Shown here one piece after another: positions 9,799 through 62,900 of a stretch of DNA of 64,000 nucleotides. Position numbers and translations under genes: made by a program. Location: assembly GCA_014526335.1 (NCBI GenBank), contig JACTAT010000032.1, forward strand, positions 10,112,152-10,176,151, written 5' to 3'. This DNA is from Chrysaora quinquecirrha. Lineage: Eukaryota > Cnidaria > Scyphozoa > Semaeostomeae > Pelagiidae. The notes under the pieces are model-generated. The model was not told the origin of the DNA and did no database searches. It worked only from the letters and a program-made list of their open reading frames with translations. Position 1 is the stretch's first letter, and every line of letters starts with the position of its first letter.

Positions 9799-10992
9799 AA
9801 GCTCACCCGGGGTAATGTCTCTGCAGTACAGTGGAGGCTGCGCAGTACAGTGGAGGTTGTTCAGTACAGTGGAGGGATAATATGATGCGCGTGGGGGATA
9901 ACATTGAGTACAGTGGAGGCTGTTCAGTACAGCGGAGGGATAACATCAGTACAGTGGAGGTTATAGCGCCATCGTGCTGCTTTCAGCAAGCTATTTTGTT
10001 GTGTTATTTTATTGACTGAGAAATGAAGGAGGCCTGTTTGATTTAAATAATATAAAGGGTAAAATAAGCAAATAGGAGTATTCACACTAACATACTTGTT
10101 TGTCGTTTTGTATTGTTTATATTTTCCGATATGAAAACGTAGCCCCGCACACAACCGAAAATGCGTGTTAGTGCGTAAGTAAAAAGAGTGATCGAGTTTA
10201 AAAAAGAATGCCACAGGGTCAAGGTAAACAATTCAAGCATTCGAGTTTTTCTTTCTTACTTATCTGAAGTTATGCCAAGAAGAACATAAATGGATGAAGA
10301 ATTTAAATCCTTTTTGCTTAGAGCTCCCTCAAAGAAAAGCAGAAAAGCAGTAGCCCGAAATATCAATTTCGACAGAATAGACAAGTATTTTGTTAACTTA
10401 ACCTTTGATCTTATAGTAATCAAATTCTAACGTTCGGACTTGTTTCTATTGTATTTAATTTTTGGCTAGTTTTTGAATTGACAAATTCAAGATGTTTATT
10501 CTCATTGCGCCATAATGCTCGACAAAGTAGCTTGCTGAAAGCAGCACGATATGGCGCTATAAACTCCAATGATGTTATCTCCCCACAGTACCGAACAGCC
10601 TCCACTGTACTGGTTACCCCTCCATAGTACTGAACAGCCTCTACTGTACTGATGTTATCCCCCCACAAGCATCTTGTTATCTCTCCACTGTACTTATGTT
10701 ATCCATCCACAGTACTGAACAGCCTCCACTGTACTGATGTTATCCCCCCACATGCATCATGTTATCCCTCCACTGTACTGATGTTATCCCTCCGCAGTAC
10801 TGAACAGCCTCAACTGTACTCAATGTTACCCCCCACACGCTTCACGATATCCCTCCACAGTACTGAACAGCCTCTACTGTACTGATGTTATCCCCTCCCC
10901 CACACGCATCATGTTATCCATCCACTGTACTGAACAACCTCCACTGTATTGCACAGCCTCCACTGTACTGCACAGACTACCCCTCGTGAGGC
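9799..10992. mobile_element. Foldback transposon built of GTACAGTGGAGG units
   Basis: The left part (9799-10000) holds repeated CAGTACAGTGGAGG units. The right part (10510-10992) holds many inverted copies (CCTCCACTGTACTG). Deeper inside, AGCGCCATCGTGCTGCTTTC (9965 on) returns inverted near 10558-10520. An 8-base word, TAGCTAGC, flanks both sides (9791-9798 and 10993-11000) and is the likely target-site duplication, though it is largely palindromic. The element has no transposase frame, so it is non-autonomous. The 8-bp duplication would suit a hAT-type transposase. Confidence 0.75.
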
Positions 10993-49700: not shown

Positions 49701-52700
49701 ACTAAATGTTTGAAAACTATTAGATATGATTCTTTTAATTTTAGAAACTAATCGCAGTTTTGCACGATATTTGTCAGTTCCTGTGTGCTCATGCGAAACT
49801 TGGAAGCTCTGCCGCCAGAATGGGATCTAAGAAACTTGAATTCTCTTGTGTAACAGCAGACTGGGGTGGAACAGAAGGAATAGGTACGCTGAATATTTCA
49901 TTACGAATGATTACTTCTGTTCACGTACACAATGAAAACCATATTAAATTTTAACTTCTTTTCATAATAGGTGCTGAACTGCGAGAAATTCAAAACCAGA
50001 TCAACAATTTGGAAAATCCGTCCAGTCCTGAATTGGTAATACAACGGCAACCTTTTTTAGTTATATATCACAACCATGCCTAAGAGCTTATTGAGAAGGC
50101 AAACCTGATGGTTGCCTTTGTTGCTAATTTTTATAGCGTTATATGAGTTATGTAGATCAAGCAGACAAACTTCTCAGATTGCTGCTCTTTTAGCTTTCTA
50201 TGCTATTTGTCTCCTTCTTTATTTTCACAAAAAAGAAAAGAAACATCCTCCTGTTAAATTCTCCCTCTCCAGGATAATACCAAAAGCCAAAACCCTGTCA
50301 GGAAGTTGGGCGTTTGTGCATCAGCCGAATGAGATGGCCTCCAAAGGGCTTCTGGAGCGTATGCATTACCCTTATATGGCCCTTGGTCCTCTAGCCTATA
50401 AGCCCCTAAGTGGCCCTTAAAATCACTGACTGGGACAAAGAAAGAATTTCCGGCCCACAGCATACACCCCTTCTGACCCCGGCCCTCAAGCATCTGCTAC
50501 CAGTTAACTGCCTGACCACAACAAACACTTTATAGTCGCTGGCTAATGCACCTTGCTCACCACTGAAGGAAGTGGCAAACGAGAGGAGTAGTAGGAGAAA
50601 ACAAAGGTTGAAGATGTCTTGAAAAGACGAATTGGCAGAATAAGCACTATCCAAGGGGAGGGAAGAGCAACTTGAAACGACTGTACACCGAGCACTGATG
50701 ATGATGAGGTTTGCCTCGTGCTTGCCAATTTATCTATTCTATCATCCGGGACATTGACCCCAAGCATGTGCCCTTCCCATCATCCATAGCAGGATCCGTT
50801 CCGGGGGTAAATAACTGAGATTTAAACCTCTGGCTTAAATATATATTTAAACCTTTCATTGATTATATAGAATTAGTTTAATTTTTTCGATCTCTGGCAT
50901 TCTCGTTGCTCAATAGGTGATCGAATTTTTGACCATGAAGCGAGACGTGATGTATTTAGAATTTGATGTAGCAATTTCCAAATCTGTTCGAAGAACCTTC
51001 CTGTTGACTGGAAATGAAAAGGCGTACCAGGTAAGTGCCTTTGTTAGTTAGCAACTGCCTGAAAAGTAATATGAACCATAGTCAATAGAATAAACATTGG
51101 TTGGGAAGCCTATAGTTGTAAGTTATTGTTCGTTTTATTTCAGTCACGTGATCAAAAGATGTGCATTGTGACGCCTTGACAACATAGAATATACTGTGAA
51201 ACTATTAGTAAAACGACAAGTGCTACGTTGTTTCGACTTTTGCTTTGATATTGAAGAATACTACTAAATTTTTTGTTTATTAAATAGCAAATGGCATCAA
51301 GAGAACATTACGTAAGAACATGCCTTAGAAAAGGAAAACCAAATGCAAATCATGAAATGCAAATCCAAAATGCCCGGGAGGTACAGTACTGTTCTTTATT
51401 TAATTTCGCTACAGCTATATGCTGCTCATATGGGTGGGTTTTACCAAGGAAATTCTCAAAACATGGGTGTATTTCCTACCTAAGCCCATGTAAGAAGGCG
51501 GGAAAGCGGAGATAATTAATAAAACGTTTATTTTTGGGTCAAATAGCATTAATATCGCGCAGCAGATACTATTACGAAAGTGAAGATGAGGCCTGAAAAG
51601 TCTTATTACTCTAATATTTCACTTATATTCCCTATAATAAGGAGTATGTGTTTAAACTTTTAGTGGGTCTTGGTGGGTTTGTAAAATCTCGGCGACACAT
51701 TTCGGCCCATCTACAAGTGGTGTTATTCACCCCACCCCAGAGCAGAAGATGGGGGAAGAAATTCATTATAAATCAAACAACTATTCTATCATTTTTTAGC
51801 CAGGGTTGTTTTCGTCAGGCCCGGAAAAATACACAACTCGCTTAATGCCACAATGAGGTAAAACAGGTAAAACGTCACGTCGTATCTAAAACGAATTTTC
51901 GCATGTTTTTTTATCAAGACTTCAAGACTTTTTTTGTTAGTTTTATCTATTCCAGTAACACTGTTTGTTCGCATTCGAAGTTCGCGTTGTGTTAGGCCGT
52001 TCTCGAAAATTTGCAGAAATGAATTTTTAGGTGAGATCTTCAAAAAGTACAAACAAGTTGGACTTGTTGTTGGACGCATGTATTTGCGAATATAAGCTAG
52101 CTTTTAAAATGTTTCCATCCTTTTCCCGGTAGGTACTTTTACTCCAAAACACTATGCGAATATCGAGAAAAATAAAGTAATTGCGGTCCCAACAAGTCAA
52201 GATTTTTATCCGCTAAAAGTGTATTAATTGTGTGACACCGAACCACGAAAAGTGCAGAAAATTGTAGATAAACTGACAAAAAATAAGGTGGTTGTTTTGC
52301 TTAATTTTTCAGGAGGCTAATGTCGAGGTATTTTTACAAATTCAAATACCAGTATTCTGAACCCATAACCGGGATCACCTCGGTGACTGAGCACTGCGGA
52401 ACAGCGGAGTTATTCGAAGGTTAAATTGTGTTATGAGGTTCTAAAGAACTGTTTTTAATTATTTCCAAAATTCCGATGCATCTTTATCTTCTATAAGTAC
52501 AAAAATCTGCATGTATTAAAGTATATTTTTTTAGCATATCGATGTTCTAGAAAATGCATTTCACTGTCATTACCATTGGTTTTACATTTTGCCGGTGTTG
52601 CTTAGGCGTCTCAATGCACGGTTGCTGATAACGTGAAAACTTTTTCACACTGATTCTACGTGCGAACAATAGACCGAAGCAATAGGCTTCCAGACCAGTT

Positions 52701-55700
52701 ATTATTCTATTGACTATGTATGAACATTGCTGTCCTAATTATTTTCTTTCGATAGTCCGTTCTTTGCTTTCCATTTTTATGAATATTTTTCAGCTAGTTG
52801 CTAATGCTTTTTGCTTTTTAAGGCAAAAACGCCCCCAACCAGCCAAACATTTTAGGATAACTCAAAAAGCGGAAAAGAACTACACAGTAAAACAAATCGA
52901 CCCTATATCAACTTAATCCCCAAACTAACCACAAATCGACCCTATTCTATCCCTAAACTGTCCTCATCCCTACATCGCCCCGAAATTGTGCCGAAGTTAT
53001 TATTTCCCTAAAGCTCCGGCCAAACGTACTGAACATGTTCACTGAACTTATCCCAACATTGTTCAGTGTTGTTCAGTATCGGTGGCCAAATGCGTTGCAC
53101 ATTCTGGTGAATTTTTCATCGATTGTAATATGTTGTTTTTTTATTGAAAATATATATGTATATGGCGAAAATTGATCGAATCTCTAGTGGTATATCTGGA
53201 ATAATAGAAAATAGGGGGTAACGCTTTTGTAATGTCCATAATTTTTATGGATGGTTTAGAGACAATTTAGTGACAGTAAGCATCCAATAACAATGGCCTC
53301 TCCGAAAGAAATAACTTGAAAATTTATGGACAAATTAAAAGCTTTTGCCTCAACTCAGATCAATGGTATCTTAAAAAAACGCTTATTTAAAGCATTCATA
53401 TTTATTTCGTATATTTCGTTTATAAGTCTTAAATGCAAGGGGAATGTCAATAATTTCTGACTAAGAGCAAAGTATTACATGGTTTCTGTCGTAAAAGTTC
53501 GACCTTTTTAAAATTATGTGAGCTGTCTCAGCAATAAGGCATATTTTTCTAAATGCTCTGGAGTACCGAATAATCGAGGGTAGGCAATAAGCAGAGTCGG
53601 ATTGCAATGTGATTTTTTTTTTTTTATTCAAGAACATCTCCAACTGCATGCTATTTGCCATGAAAGATCTCTGCAACGAAAGCAGGTATGGTCAAGAGTG
53701 GAATGGTTAAGATCATAATATCAGAGCGTGTTATCTGCTTGTTTCCTCTTTATTGCCAAATATATTTGAATTATTTCAATTTGAATTTTGTCATATTATT
53801 TTGAATAATATCATTTTTTCTAGTCCTTCCCTATATGGTTCTGGCTTTCCTTTGCCTGAACCCTTGAAAGCGAAAGAAAGAATTTCTTCAGAAATTTTTC
53901 CGTGGAGGACATTTCTTGCTCGGTAATATCACAAACTAGTTTGAATGATGATCGACATTGCAGCGTAGATAACTCTTTTCTTTTAGCAAAGAACTCATTA
54001 CATTTTCTGAAACCACTTTCCTTATTTCTCGCCAGTATATATACGTTGGTATTTCTCTGATGCAAACTCTTCTTCATTCGGCACTTATGATCCATTCTAA
54101 AAGTTAGCTTGATGTTGAATAAAAAATGGGAATTCAAAGTCAAACAAAAAAGGCCATAACTTGTGCTTTGCTGCTTCCAATTATTGGTTAATATTTAGCA
54201 TTCTAAAATTTCTACCATGAGTTCAAAAGGAATGCGTACCTATAACATAAAGAAGTGTGTCTATTAATGAAATTACGTCCTGTGTGACGTCTGGTACGTT
54301 AGTTCGCAAGTTACAGAGATGAAAAGATAAGATAAAACAACATGTTGAAACTAACATTCGTCAACGCAACTTCCGGCGAAGAGAGCAACCACCCCGCAAT
54401 CCCAAAAGAGCCTACCCTTCTGCCATAGGACAGCAGATTGCGCAGAAAATTGCGCAGAAAATTGCGAAGAAAATTGTTCGATTGATTGGCAAGCAAGATC
54501 TTTGTTTCGTTAAATTATTTGGATTTTCTCCACATCGAAACAAAAATGCCGGGTCTGTGTAGACATAAAGAATTCGTTGTCTCACTTTGACTTTCCAAAT
54601 TATTCTTTTTGTCTCCCCGCTGTGTTTCGCGAGCTGATCGTTGTTGTGAAATTGATGCATTTCGATCTGCATCTGGATATAAATTCCACTTTATTGTTTC
54701 AATCTGTTTCTGACGTTGTTATCAAGTATGCCCTATGATTTATCCGCTCTTTCTCGCAATAATTTACTTACGCACCAACGCTTGAGACCATTCTTTTTTC
54801 CAGACATGGTCCTTTCTCTCTGCTCAGAAAGCCTTTTTACAACATTGGTCTTAATATGCAGACTTGCCTTGTTGGACTTGATGACGTGGACAGGTTATAT
54901 TATATTTTTACGTTTCCTAAGTTATTATTCAATCATAATGCAACTTTTTTGTATTTTATTGTGTTAATCGGCACAATTATATGTTCGATGATTATGGATT
55001 TGCTTAGGCCTTTTAATTTATTCATTTCATTTCATTTTTTTCGTATAATGTTTAATCTACCTTCCTGCATCTATTTGTTGATTTGTTGATTTTATATTGA
55101 TTGTAACTTCTGGTTTTAGACATGTTGTAAATGGTGAAATTCTAAGTCTTTCATTGTTGCTTGAAGATGTCTTATTGTTCGGCCAACCTGATATGACATT
55201 TGTTCACGGTGACGATGACTCGACTGGAAATCAAAGAGCCAGCTCTGGTGCAGAAAGTTTTGTAGCTAGTGCAAGGTATTTTTAATTGAGGAGATAAGTT
55301 TCGTAATTGAATGAATATTACGCAGCACTTATAGAATGAAACCTTATCAGATGCATCGTTCTTTCTATAGTTTTGAACATACTGCAGCCCTGCCATCTAC
55401 AGAGACGACCAGCAGAATTTTATCCTTGCGAGATAATCCACTCAAGTCGGTGGAATTTCTTCGCGACTTCCTTCTCCTGTATTCCAGATTAGAGAAGTCA
55501 AAAGATGAATGGGGATGCAGAAAGCTTGGAGTGCTCATGCTTAATTCGACAAAATCATATCGCAGTTTTGCGTAAGCTTTTATACCTTAAATTATCTATT
55601 AAACAGGTATTAATGCAAAAATACCCCTATCAAATTGTTAGCCCAATTGTACTAACCAACAAGGCACATGCAATGTCATATTTATGTTATGCTTTGATCT

Positions 55701-56917
55701 CTTTTTTACAGAACATTGTATAAAAGCGAAGTATTGCAGCTCGTTTATAAGCAAATTGAAGCATCTCGAGGAGAGGTAAAGAAAGCTCAATGTGTGGCTC
55801 AGTATGACATAAAATAACTGATCTCGTTAGTTGTATTTTTTGTTAGCTATGATGCATTGAAATGTTCTAAATTTTTAATTGTTTCAGGAAGACGACTACA
55901 GCAAAATTAATATCATAGACGACAACGAGCCCTTAATTTTTCCCGAATATGTTGGAGACTATGAGCTCAAGGCTCGACAAGTAAGTTACTTTTATACATA
56001 GACAGGGTTTTTACCGCAATAATCCAGCAAAGAGGGTTATCTAGGGTTTTCAAATTGAAATCTACTAAAAAAGGTCGGATAACACGAATCCAGGATGGGA
56101 TATCTTAAAAACAGGGAGCGGGGAGCGGGGAGTGGGGAGCGGAGCGGAGAATGATATTTTATTTCTTTCATAAGGAAACACCACTAAGCATGCGCAAGTC
56201 ACTTCTCATCAAGAAAGAGTAGGGCTGTCCAAAGGCAATATTTTTACCAACGTATAAGCACTTGTACTGTGAAACTGCGAATGGCTCATTAAATCAGTTA
56301 TCGTTTACACGTTTTTTTATAAGAAACCGGTTTATAAGAAACCTAGAACTAGACACGCCGAAAGCTAAGAAACTTTTAGAACTAGGAGGAAGAAGTTGAG
56401 AAACTGTAGAAATTTTTGCGTCCGTTTTCCAACATACTGATTCACATTTGTGGAGGTAGTAATTAGTTCTCACGCATTTCCGTGCAATTCCTCGCACCAG
56501 CGTGGCTAATTCTGTGCGATTTCTCGCATCTGTGAGCAATACTGGTTTCCGTGTATCTCACAGAAGCTATTTTGTCGTTTTTACTGCAATTTATTTCAAT
56601 TCATTAAGAAACTGTTAAGAAACTTTTGGAACTAAAATTAGGCAAAAAATTAAGAAACTTTTAGAACTAGGCCCCGAGCTAGGTTTCTTATAAAAAAAAC
56701 GTGTATTTGATTGTACCTTACTACATGGATAACCGTGGTAATTCTAGAGCTAATACATGCGAAAAGTCCCGACTTCTGGAAGGGATGTATTTAGTCTTTA
56801 TCCTAGTTCTAACCATAAACGATGCCGACTAAGGATCAACGGGCATTATTTTATGACCCCATTGGCACCTTATGGGAAACCAAAGTTTTTGGGTTCCGGG
56901 GGAAGTATGGTCGCAAA

Positions 56918-56955
<38 letters not shown>

Positions 56956-59900
56956 AAGTGGAGCCTGCGGGTTAATTTGACTCAACAAGGGAAAGCTCAC
57001 CAGGTCTAGACATAGTAAGGATTGACAGATTGAGAGCTCTTTCTTGATTCTATGGGTGGTGGTGCATGGCTTAGTTGGTGGAGTGATTTGTCTGGTTAAT
57101 TCCGTTAACGAAACGAGACCTTATCCTGCTGAATAGTCACACGAATCTCGCTTCGTGCCTGACTTCTTAGAGGGACTGTTGGTGTTAACCATCGTAAGGA
57201 AGACAACAGCTGTGATGCCCTCAGATGTTCTGGGCCGCACGCGCGCTACACTGACGATGGCAGCGAGTCTTGTCAAACATCGTCGTGATGGGGATAGATC
57301 ATTGCAATTATTATTCTTGAACGAGGAATTCCTAGTTAGCGCGAGTCATCAGCTCAAGTCATCTAGTTGAATCCACCACGTAAAGTGAAACCTAACTTTC
57401 GCCCAGAACCTCTGATTAATGAGTTGGAGTCACTTGCACATTTGCGCATATTAGTGGTGTTTTGTTATCCCACAAATAAGGGATTATTCTCCACTCCGCT
57501 CCCCACTCCCCACTCCCCACTCCCCGCTCCCCACTCCCCGCTCCCCACTCCCCGCTCCCCACTCCCTGTTTTAAAGATAGCCATCCAGGATGGGCCCTCA
57601 AAAATTTACGCCGGAAGTACCCTTAATTTAGACTTATTACCTGAGTCGTAGTTATCGCTATTGAATTCAATTGCTGAATGCTCAAACTACAACTCATTCA
57701 ACTTTGTTTGCGAGCGTATGGACTGACATTTTTGCCCCGTTTCCATAATTCTGTTCGATTGCAGATACTGCGAATCCCTGACAGAAATCTGTCTCATCTC
57801 ACTTTTTGCTGTGCAAAGTAAGAGCCTGTTTACACGAGCCCGGGTTGACTGCAACCCGCCTCAGAGGGTCAGCCCTTCGCCAAATCTTTTCAAGCGTTTA
57901 CACGAACATAGCAGTCAACCCTGGTCAACCCGCCTAGGCTGGTAACCCTTCTCGAGGGTAGGGTTGACCCTTGTAAATGGGTTACCTTTTTGTAATTTTT
58001 TCCATGTGAAGGTGGGTCGACTCAACCAGCGGTCATTTTTCCGCGCCAAAAATTCGGCGCATGCGTTATTCTGTTTTTTATATCAACAATATGGTGACAA
58101 CGAAGCCAAGCTATAGCAATTACTTTGGAAACGAAAAAGGGCAGAAAAATCGGTGGGCAGTGGACAAGTAAGATGCTTGTGGTGATTATAACACATACAA
58201 TTTGGCGCCTGGGTTCCAGACCCCAACGCATGCGAGGAACAGCAAGCTGGCCCGAGCTGAGTCTGCCAGCTGCGGAAGAAGCCACCCCGGGTTCGTGTAA
58301 ACACTCAAAAATTTTTATTTTAAAGCAACGAGCTGCTCCGGGTAGAGAGCCAACCCGGGTTCGTGTAAACGGGCTCTAAGTGCAAAGTGCAAAGCTCGAC
58401 TCAACTCGGCTGAACAACAAATTTGTTCGATTGCTAATTGAAACAAATAAAAAATTTATCAGCAAAGTACTTATTAATCCAAAAATTAAAAAAGAAAAAC
58501 AAAATAAAGTACACTTTATCTATTCTTCTTAATTTTATTACTCAAGCAAGACATGCATGTCCAAAGTTTATGCAATATTTTTACCAACGCGGGCAGAAAA
58601 ACATCAAGGCAAAAGACATGAAATATCAAAACAAACTAATGCAATTCTCTTTAACGTTAACATAGTTTCCACTATACATTTTTAATTTTATGGGTAGCCA
58701 ATCTTAGAGGGCGGCTACTATCTAGACAAAAATAACGAACAAAAATAGATTTTCTGGTCGATTCAAAGCGCGATTCAATGCGACAAATATTAAGTTGCAA
58801 AATTGATTCAACTTCCATTTTCTAGAGGAGTAAACGAAAAAGGACATAAAGTCAAAATTACGGATAATGCAACAAAATTTATATGCTATAGGCCTACAGC
58901 CTTTCTGTTCTGTTCAGTTTTGACGAAAAAAGTTGGAGAGCGGAGACCTCGGAACGTAATATCAGAGAAAACTGTGGAGAATCTTAAACAAAATGTCAGG
59001 AAGCTGAATCAACTTCAACTTTCTACTACATGCACTTAAAGTATCTAAAAAAAATTTTCTCGATGATACATTAAAGTTCAGAAATATATACTGTTGCAGT
59101 TCCTTTGACTTGACGGCTTTCAGTTCAGGTTTTTCGGTCCCGCTTCAGTCTGTGTTTCAAATAACAAATTTTAAAGCAAAAGCTTCTTTTCCACTCCAAA
59201 TTTAAACAGCGAAAAGAAATCATCTATTGAAAAACACTGCATCGCAAAATTTAATTGAAAAATGCCTTGCAAGACCCTCAACTTTTCGATTTACATAATT
59301 TGTTGCAGAGCCTATGCGAAGCTGCGATGAAGTTTCCCCTCCATTGCCAGCCAAAATCTCTTGTGATCCAGGGGGCTCGCAGTTTTATCCAAACAAACCG
59401 AAGTTTTATATTTCGAAATCAGAAACGAATTTGATTGGCCAATAAAACAATATATCTTGTTAAATGGTCTATTAACAAATACGGACAAGTCCTTTTGTTT
59501 GAATTTTGTTTGTCATTGATCCATTGCCGGTGCTCTAAATGCTGGTTTGTACGCACGTCTGCACTGTCTCTCGTACAGCTCCGTAGGGAGCTGGAGCTAT
59601 TTTGTGACTATTGCACCCCAACTCAAAAGTAATACAAGCTGAAAAATAGAATCCATGTCTGTACTGATCATAATGGTGATGACGTCATCTTTATTTCAAA
59701 CGAGTTTACCTCGAAATTGGTAGTTCGTTTTGAAATACTGTCAAAGACAATTTTACTGAGCATTTCTTCATATGAAGTAATCAGATTTGAAAATGTGCGA
59801 CTTTTTTGATTAACTTAATTAGGCCTAATTAGGCGTTGATAAAGGCTACTTCCGGTAAAAATTTTTGAAGGCTCATCTTGGATTCGTATTTTCCGACCTT

Positions 59901-62900
59901 TTTTATATAGATTTCATCGAAAAAACCCAAGGTTACCCTCTTTGCTAGATTGTTGCGGAAAAAACCCTGTCTATACATAGCTTCTAAGAGCTTTAAGAAA
60001 AAATGATTTCAATTTTTTACTTTGGCTCTCAAACAGGCACAATATAGAATAGTTTGCAATTGTCTCTTTTAGCTGAATTGGTCAATGGGAGGGCAGTGAG
60101 TGTGGTGTTTTCAGGATCTTTTTAATATCTAGTGCTCAAAGGTGTTTCTTTTGCCCACCACATTTTTTATTTTGGACAGCATAGGGAGGAAATGAGTTTT
60201 TTCGAATTGTATAGCTAACTTTGCATAGAAATAGAATTTATTTGCTTTAGTTTAGAACTGCTAGAGCGTTAAAGACGAGATTGTGCATAACTATGTTAAC
60301 CAAGAAACGTTGTTGTCAATTGTGAAGAAGAGGAAAATACAGTTATTCGGGCACATTAATCGTCACCACAATTCTCTTAGTTTAGCCAATACCGTAATCT
60401 ATTGGAGGGTACTTGGCTGAGGGATTCTAAGAGAAAACTTGTTGTCTAACATCAGTGAATTGACCAATCTATCAGTGATAGGCGCTACAACAAGGAATGC
60501 AGCCGAGGGAAAAACGTGGGAATGCATAGTTGAAAACAAGCTAGTGCACCTAAATGGATCTTGATGATGGTGATGTCGTGTCGTCAAGCTGATTGCGCAT
60601 CCCTAGCAACAACTGAATTCCAGATCCAGACTACTGTATTATTGATATTATTGTTTCCGTTTATTACTATTGTATGATAACTATATTACTTCTATTTCCG
60701 TAGCTAAGAAGATTACTCGAAAGCTTGGAATGTTTCATGATTAATGCCGTCATTAGAAGGATCTCTCGAGAGCATACTTTTGTTGTTGCAGAAAAAAGTA
60801 GAGAAGATCCTAATTTACCCACAGATCTGTGGAAAAACACGGTTTGCAAGTTATTTGAAATTTTAAAAATAATTTTCATATATAATACTTATGTGTCACA
60901 TTTATCAGGATAGTGAGTCAAATACCAAAACTTTGAGAAAAGTTGTCAATCCTGAAGGCTGGCTTCAGCAAAATAGTTAAAGGATAATAGAGCACGAAAT
61001 GAAATTTTTCACATTCATCATTTGTTATGTTAAGCCAAACAAAGCCTTAGGTGGCACTAATAGAGACCACGATTGTCTTTTCTGCTTTGGTTTGTTGGGT
61101 TCTGGTGTTTCTCAACAATATCTTCTTTCAGACATCTTTGATTAATTATTTATTGCAGGCAATGAAAGAAAGCATTAATTTATCAAGACCGCAAATTGTA
61201 GAGGATTTTTTGCAGACCTTAATGAGTGACCATCTCGAAAATGACGATATTATTACATTCAGTAAGGTATGCAACTATTTGATGATACATGACAAGTACT
61301 GTGCACGCATGATGCTTTCTGAATAGTCTAATGCATTTTCCAGAAATTTAGAATTCATCAATCGGTCACAACTTAAGTCATCTGCTCCAAAAACACTATG
61401 CAATATCAGATTTTGTAATATGCCAAGTTTCCTCATTTCCAATTCCAAGGCTATATTTTTTGTGCCACAACTTCACTCTTCGCCGTTATGAAAATATTTC
61501 AAAATTCCAGAATGGAATTGCAGGAACGGCAGTTTAAACGATTTGTTAATACACTTTCCATTTGTCGTGACTTTAGTGCCAATGATTTTGCAAACTGACG
61601 ATGTATTCTCCTAATGTTTTTTTGTAAAAGGGACATCTGGAGAAAAGCTTGATTGTACTAGCTTCAAGTGTTCATGAAAGAGAACGACAAAATTTCAAAA
61701 GGTTATCTATTCAAAAATATATTAGTTTTTTTCAATAAATTTGAAGCACCATAAATAAACTACCCTAGCTAGTTGCTATAAATTAACCATTAATTAATAA
61801 ACTTATGTTGACAAACTGAAAAACCTAAACTAGTTGATTAAGCCCCAGTTGCACTATACTGGCATGCCTCGTCGCGCCATGATTTTTGTATCAGATTGGG
61901 CTGTCAGTTACACTATGACGGCTCAATCCGGTATAAGACGCTCCGAAAATCGTCATGAAAATCATGGCGCGTTAAAGGTGATTTGAAAATCAAGACGCGA
62001 CGTGGCGGCACAGTGTAATCAGACCAATCCAATACATGACGCTCCGAGACCTTTTTTCTATTGTTTCACAAAACAAATGCGAGCAAATCTGCGAAGGAGC
62101 TGCCATGGCGTCTCAGTGTAAATGCAATGATCGTGATAAACACTGGTAAAACTTACCTTTTCTGACAAAGAACTAGAATTATGACATTAGGGTGGAATGG
62201 ATTCAGAAATGTGAAACACTTGGTGCTTGTTGTTAATTCTTAAGAAGAAATTTTGCTTTGTTGCTTTTAAACATTTTGCTAGAAACGAATACTTATTTAT
62301 ATATGGTTATCTCCAAATTTTGCGCGGAAGTCATCCAACTTTCTTTAAATATACACTTTCATTGTGACGTTGCCCTTGTGATAAAATTAACATCCAATTT
62401 TATTTATTTCGAAGAATCAGCATGCCCATATTTTCTTTCAACAGATGTTCATTTAACTGACCATGCTACCTGAAATAATGCAACAACGACCAAACAATGC
62501 GTTTTTATTTTACAACAATTCATTCGGCAATATGCCGGATAGCAATCCAGAAATTTTGAGAAGTTGACAACTGTATGCTTTCTCTTTCCAGCTATTCTTC
62601 CTTCTATGAAAACATACTGAAACAGCTAAATCAGACAATTTACATGAAAGAACAGGTAAGATATAACAGAAATCAAACAATCGTTTTCAAGGAGAGTTGT
62701 AAGCCTTTTTCTTTTGAACTTTTAAACTATTTTATTGTTACGTCATGAATGAGGTGATCGTATCGCATATCCTGTCGAAAGTAATTCTATATTAAATACC
62801 AGAGTTCTCTCTCAATCTAGGAAATCAAGAAGGTTGAAAATGAAACAAAACTGTCAAATTCTGAGCAAAGCGTTGAAGTTGACTGCCTCATGGCTGAAAA

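Follow-up and report, generated by a model that had tools for sequence, protein, structure and literature searches.

A transposon nest in the jellyfish Chrysaora quinquecirrha contains an element that carries part of the host 18S rRNA gene between inverted ends. With a probability of about 0.88, this element belongs to the non-autonomous foldback transposons of Mutator type, took up host 18S rDNA and has since moved with it as one unit. It is real and well supported, ordinary in mechanism and unusual in cargo. The nest lies in the window, the whole stretch of 64,000 nucleotides that was analyzed, on contig G000:C257. The genome searched is the 328-Mb assembly.

Architecture of the nest

The original prediction placed a three-level nest at 56001-59971 with the 18S-bearing element at 56098-57582, and these coordinates hold on direct sequence check. 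The nest is real and is deeper than first described. Three levels is an undercount, as a second insertion stack within the outer unit, in which a repeat designated element B is split by MITE C, had been overlooked. The outer element of the window therefore contains two stacks, one in the left arm, formed by the 18S-bearing element and its TA-flanked MITE, and one in the middle, formed by element B and MITE C (Table 1).

Table 1. Features of the nest, in order of position in the window.
Feature	Position	Strand	Evidence
Outer element, left 8-bp target duplication, TATACATA	55993..56000	.	direct sequence; second copy at 59972-59979
Outer foldback element, left arm, first part, starts GACAGGGTTTTTACCGC	56001..56097	+	84-90% to L073/L076 arms
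18S-bearing element, left target duplication, ATCCAGGATG	56088..56097	.	exact 10-bp repeat of 57583-57592
18S-bearing element, left terminal inverted repeat with GGGGAGYGGGGAG minisatellite	56098..56197	+	82-93% complementary to 57442-57582; 9 copies share the ends
18-bp sequence private to the window copy	56235..56252	+	exact repeat of 58572-58589 in element B
18S rRNA piece 1 (host 18S ruler 63-118)	56252..56307	+	98%
TA-flanked MITE in 18S piece	56308..56703	+	ends CACGTTTTTT../..AAAACGTG; TA both sides
18S rRNA piece 2 (host 18S ruler to 206)	56704..56793	+	98%
18S rRNA piece 3 (host 18S ruler 1013-1605)	56801..57355	+	88%, gaps counted; RF01960
5-bp loss (CCGTT) in window copy at the hAT-like MITE point	57069..57070	.	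L001 vs L006/L007/L008 alignment
18S-bearing element, right arm: old subterminal sequence, minisatellite and terminal end	57360..57582	-	matches both L070 ends
18S-bearing element, right target duplication, ATCCAGGATG	57583..57592	.	exact 10-bp repeat
Outer element, left arm, continuation	57593..57628	+	89-91% to L073/L076 over 57583-57628
Element B, separate dispersed repeat inside outer element	57629..~59464	+	boundary-matched copies elsewhere; L074 89-91%
MITE C 9-bp duplication, GTGCAAAGT	57811-57819 and 58380-58388
MITE C inside element B	57820..58379	+	solo copy L075 88%; empty site readable in L074
Unassigned stretch between element B and outer right arm	59465-59599
Outer foldback element, right arm	59600..59971	-	90% to L073/L076
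Outer element, right target duplication, TATACATA	59972..59979	.	direct sequence

The outer unit had been described as having inverted ends of about 125 bp between TATACATA duplications. The inverted ends and the duplications are confirmed; the arm length was too short, as the arms of relatives L073 and L076 are 303-385 bp. When the inner element and one target copy are removed, the restored left arm aligns with the right arm over ~134 bp. The outer ends match a ~1.1-kb foldback family with at least 16 two-armed relatives among the matches listed (40/2146 candidates scored), of which L073 and L076 were read. The target duplication of L076 is TAGTATA (7 bp), less tidy than the 8 bp in the window, and no exact duplication was found on reading the sequence of L073. 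Approximately 590 bp of the outer middle are present in L076 and missing from the window copy. Just upstream, in 55888-56000, an exon-like stretch runs to 55980, where GTAAGT follows, and the outer element begins ~20 bp further on. The nest may therefore occupy an intron, immediately downstream of its splice donor. Neither the exon-like stretch nor the three plus-strand frames of 50001-59902 (stops as X) matched a Pfam family.

The inner element has its own inverted ends and target duplication, as predicted. The extra GG that had been appended to the duplication was assigned to the element because 9/9 copies start with GG. The termini read GGATATCTT.../...AAGATAGCC and are followed inward by the GGGGAGYGGGGAG minisatellite, which is built of 7/14-bp units in arrays whose length varies between ends and between copies. 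Inverted arms of short tandem repeats that vary in number are a trait of foldback elements of the Tm1/FB type. The terminal inverted repeats of the window copy are at least ~100 bp long, and those of relative L070 490 bp.

The cargo was recognized as 18S rRNA by the Rfam model SSU_rRNA_eukarya (RF01960; 434 bits, E 7.9e-128), in agreement with the original prediction. Identities of the pieces were taken from alignment to host rDNA on contig C378. The cargo is rearranged, amounts to ~700 bp and is the same in all nine copies of the element found in the genome; the 806 bp of 18S absent between pieces 2 and 3 are missing from 9/9. We infer that the 18S piece travels as a passenger and has no ribosomal function. 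The private 18-bp sequence beside piece 1 is missing from the other eight copies in the alignment and is probably templated repair filler. Its match to element B suggests that local templated repair took place after both stacks were present.

Copies and relatives of the 18S-bearing element

Genome searches were carried out with the whole element (40/1649 candidates scored) and with its MITE-free part (40/53 scored). Both yielded the identical nine high-identity copies, L001-L009, where L001 is the window copy and nine is a lower bound. As support, the original prediction asked for many copies that share the ends and contain 18S but differ in their flanks. At least nine such copies, all with both inverted ends, occupy eight separate sites, each with its own 9-10-bp duplication. 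Identity to the window copy is 91-100% over the main stretches. The target duplications are exact in 9/9 copies, 9 bp in four and 10 bp in five, while exact 9-mers at random position pairs in the window were found in 44/2,000,000 trials. Pairwise differences among the nine copies are 0.24-4.46%, and an unrooted tree divides them into two groups, L001/L006/L007/L008 and L002/L003/L004/L005/L009.

The flanking duplications could instead have belonged to a larger segmental repeat. This was rejected on pairwise comparison of the flanks of 8/9 copies (L001-L005 and L007-L009), since among these only L004 and L005 match. These two have their target in common, together with 266 and 128 bp of flanking sequence (~394 bp), beyond which they diverge, leaving eight independent sites. 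They probably represent one insertion copied along with a piece of its surroundings, as though a small duplication or some other mobile element had taken it along. L004 and L005 lie at 859 kb and 496 kb of contig C376 in inverted relative placement. L006 is inserted at the margin of a 305-bp satellite array, and the adjacent units of that array show its empty site.

The 18S copies have relatives that lack 18S. The terminal 21-mer of the element occurs at 274 places (≤2 mismatches) compared with 1 for a reversed-pattern control, and the family termini are GGCTATCTTTAAAAC-type ends. Among the matches listed for the 21-mer, at least 17 further inverted pairs, 0.2-2.5 kb apart, were recognized by eye. 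Together these results suggest that the 18S copies form a single subfamily within a large foldback family. In L070, which lacks 18S, the two arms are 85% alike. The right arm of the window copy (57360-57582) matches both L070 ends, at 81% and 86% over 223 columns, and the match departs about where the 18S begins. By this alignment L070 locates the right-hand capture boundary of the 18S. L070 has no exact target duplication; 8/9 bp agree. L071 and L072 represent one 18S-less insertion that occurs in two contigs and has a 10-bp duplication; they share only the outer arm with the 18S element and have a different interior. A host gene fragment moved as a unit is a Pack-MULE trait, and here 18S is present in 9/9 copies and absent from L070 and L071/L072. 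The left junction of the capture includes ~34 bp of unassigned sequence. The 18S seems to have taken the place of the middle of a foldback element with longer arms, a replacement that would probably have occurred via gap repair or end joining after excision.

C439:1615313-1615391 is a 92% match to the non-18S tail, ~1.1 kb from a family end (1616519-1616539), and is probably another 18S-less relative. Positions 9823-10975 of the window hold a CCTCCACTGTACTG-type minisatellite similar to a GTGGAGG minisatellite inside L071/L072; these are possibly related foldback elements.

Insertions into the 18S and order of events

The TA-flanked MITE that had been predicted to split the 18S is present with TA on each side. 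Its solo copies elsewhere are 93-96% identical, and the 14 distinct ones examined by eye are all TA-flanked. Since the MITE occupies the same 18S position in 9/9 copies, it entered the 18S before the family spread, and hence before insertion into the outer unit. The predicted order, outer unit followed by 18S element, holds and is extended by placing entry of the MITE before amplification.

L006, L007 and L008 contain an extra hAT-like MITE in the 18S, flanked by an 8-bp duplication, CATGGCCG. The window copy belongs to the same subfamily without this MITE, and has lost CCGTT at the corresponding point. We read the loss as a probable footprint of imprecise excision of the MITE from the window copy. 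Alternatively, the lineage of the window copy may never have carried the MITE and may have lost the 5 bp by chance, because the tree is compatible with L001 either nested within the group or not. The 18S of L006 also holds a non-LTR retrotransposon with poly(A), a TAGT duplication, and endonuclease (PF14529, 5.9e-9) and reverse transcriptase (PF00078, 1.9e-37) domains. Its reverse transcriptase frame is apparently split by ~1.1 kb with an ATG/ATC-rich microsatellite (L037:6761-7900). The reading of the retrotransposon as an 18S-specific R element is not supported: in the assembly, from which the working rDNA array may be missing, the pattern at its 5' junction with the 18S was found a single time. 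L009 has a further ~1-kb insert within the TA-flanked MITE.

These insertions are consistent with a stepwise history. A foldback element would have captured 18S with internal deletions, received the TA-flanked MITE and amplified into two subfamilies. Finally, the window copy would have entered the left arm of the outer foldback element.

Mobilization and significance

Two Mutator traits are present, long terminal inverted repeats and duplications within 8-11 bp in 9/9 copies. The assignment to the Mutator/Tm1 kind rests on duplication length, arm structure and the fit of the cargo, while membership in the superfamily is something we infer; duplication length by itself is no proof of superfamily. 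A Mutator-family transposase made elsewhere in the genome would recognize the ends and move the element by cut-and-paste. At least 59 MULE transposase domains are present in the genome. No autonomous partner was found by MULE domain or by scanning 30 MULE-domain loci of ~3.2 kb, 0/30 of which contain the terminal sequence or minisatellite at ≤4 errors. By eye, none of the end places among the matches listed comes closer than 30 kb to a MULE match among these 59.

Mobile elements derived from rRNA are often SINEs. An rRNA-derived retroposon (SINE or retropseudogene) lying between inverted repeats by chance is nevertheless scarcely credible here, since in 9/9 copies the termini are one common pair of inverted repeats, located outside the 18S and adjoined by the 9-10-bp duplications. 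No poly(A) borders the 18S in the alignment, and the sharing of the 18S with its 806-bp deletion by 9/9 copies also counts against retroposition. A SINE origin, which would show as a tail and variable 5' truncation at the rRNA segment, was rejected on the fixed DNA-transposon ends that lie outside the 18S in 9/9 copies. It is highly improbable that the 18S arrived through several independent events, or by gene conversion with rDNA as donor, rather than as one unit. Such a history would draw on the older 18S in the genome: at least 32 further pieces outside C378, 72-90% identical, lie at 23 loci among the matches listed, and contig C58 has 18S in both arms of an inverted repeat that extends over at least 1120 bp with arms 98.8% alike. 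Against it, the nine copies share the deletion and the MITE at their low pairwise divergence, and the older fragments are more diverged.

It is also unlikely, though less so, that another superfamily (P-like, Merlin-like or Rehavkus-like) moves the element and not Mutator proper. P elements make target duplications of 7-8 bp, to which the 10-bp duplications found here along with those of 9 bp are ill-suited. A foldback structure is reported to have arisen in the P superfamily as well, in Galileo. Rehavkus has 9-bp duplications, long inverted repeats (26-400 bp) and a minisatellite near an end, and is described from arthropods and annelids with a PHD-finger transposase (PMC6446971); the present element differs in having minisatellites in both ends. 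Mutator elements yield duplications of 8-11 bp (PMC6446971). We retain a Mutator-type foldback element as the preferred reading.

The older 18S fragments, some of them inverted pairs, suggest that rDNA was dispersed at least twice. A locus on C155 shares 18S and some adjoining non-18S sequence with C58, and coordinates alone show similar inverted 18S pairs at C190 (2.484 Mb), C294 and C194. Some of the older pieces may be plain rDNA pseudogenes. The rDNA on C378 (L031-L036; 1.405-1.425 and 1.56-1.60 Mb) is degenerate, with partial 18S and 28S genes and one 18S of ~1.5 kb. An intact donor array was not seen in the assembly, where the working rDNA array seems to be absent or collapsed.

On our best reading the closest known system would be Tm1-HH of root-knot nematodes, with a kinship in kind to Pack-MULEs. 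In Tm1, a Mutator/Foldback family, the composite inverted ends have variable 13-15-bp tandem repeats and the duplications are 8-10 bp, mostly 9; Tm1-HH is non-autonomous, has host-derived cargo (a histone hairpin) and occurs in nested insertions (PMC3169594). The present element differs in its 18S rRNA gene cargo and its end sequences, and in that Tm1 has a Phantom-type transposase (PMC3169594) and none is tied to the present family. Pack-MULEs, as cited in the Tm1 study, are likewise non-autonomous Mutator-type elements with host gene fragments between inverted repeats (PMC3169594); they are found in plants, whereas the present element has an animal host, an rRNA gene cargo and minisatellite foldback ends. 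Tetris of Drosophila virilis is a foldback element with tandem repeats in its arms, 8-10-bp duplications and no transposase found, and the portion of its description available mentions no captured rRNA (PMC4079207). The original prediction called mobilization of an 18S fragment by a DNA transposon uncommon; for rRNA sequence in DNA transposons this is fair and not absolute, as Pokey of Daphnia is a DNA transposon containing sequence derived from the rDNA spacer (PMC3315735). Pokey differs in belonging to the piggyBac superfamily, with a TTAA target, a captured intergenic spacer and insertion into 28S (PMC3315735). No DNA transposon with 18S gene cargo was found among the titles and opening lines of abstracts listed from the open-licence literature, which is weak evidence of absence.

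Plants provide the best-known examples of Mutator-type elements that capture fragments of host genes. The element described here is a clear animal case of such capture, with rRNA-gene cargo, in which a cargo-less relative fixes one capture boundary and the order of nested insertions can be read. A broader proposal, decidedly doubtful, is that this genome repeatedly made 18S rDNA mobile, giving rise to a young foldback family of Mutator type and to one or more older inverted-arm repeats. The 18S segments would then serve as transposon landing sites, as three different insertions among the 18S segments of the nine copies might indicate, and would move rDNA-homologous sequence with its inserts out of the array; the arms could make rRNA-matching dsRNA. 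Surveys based on 18S and counts of rDNA copies could pick up transposon-borne pseudo-18S and call for caution. The family offers a tractable system for how foldback elements acquire sequence.
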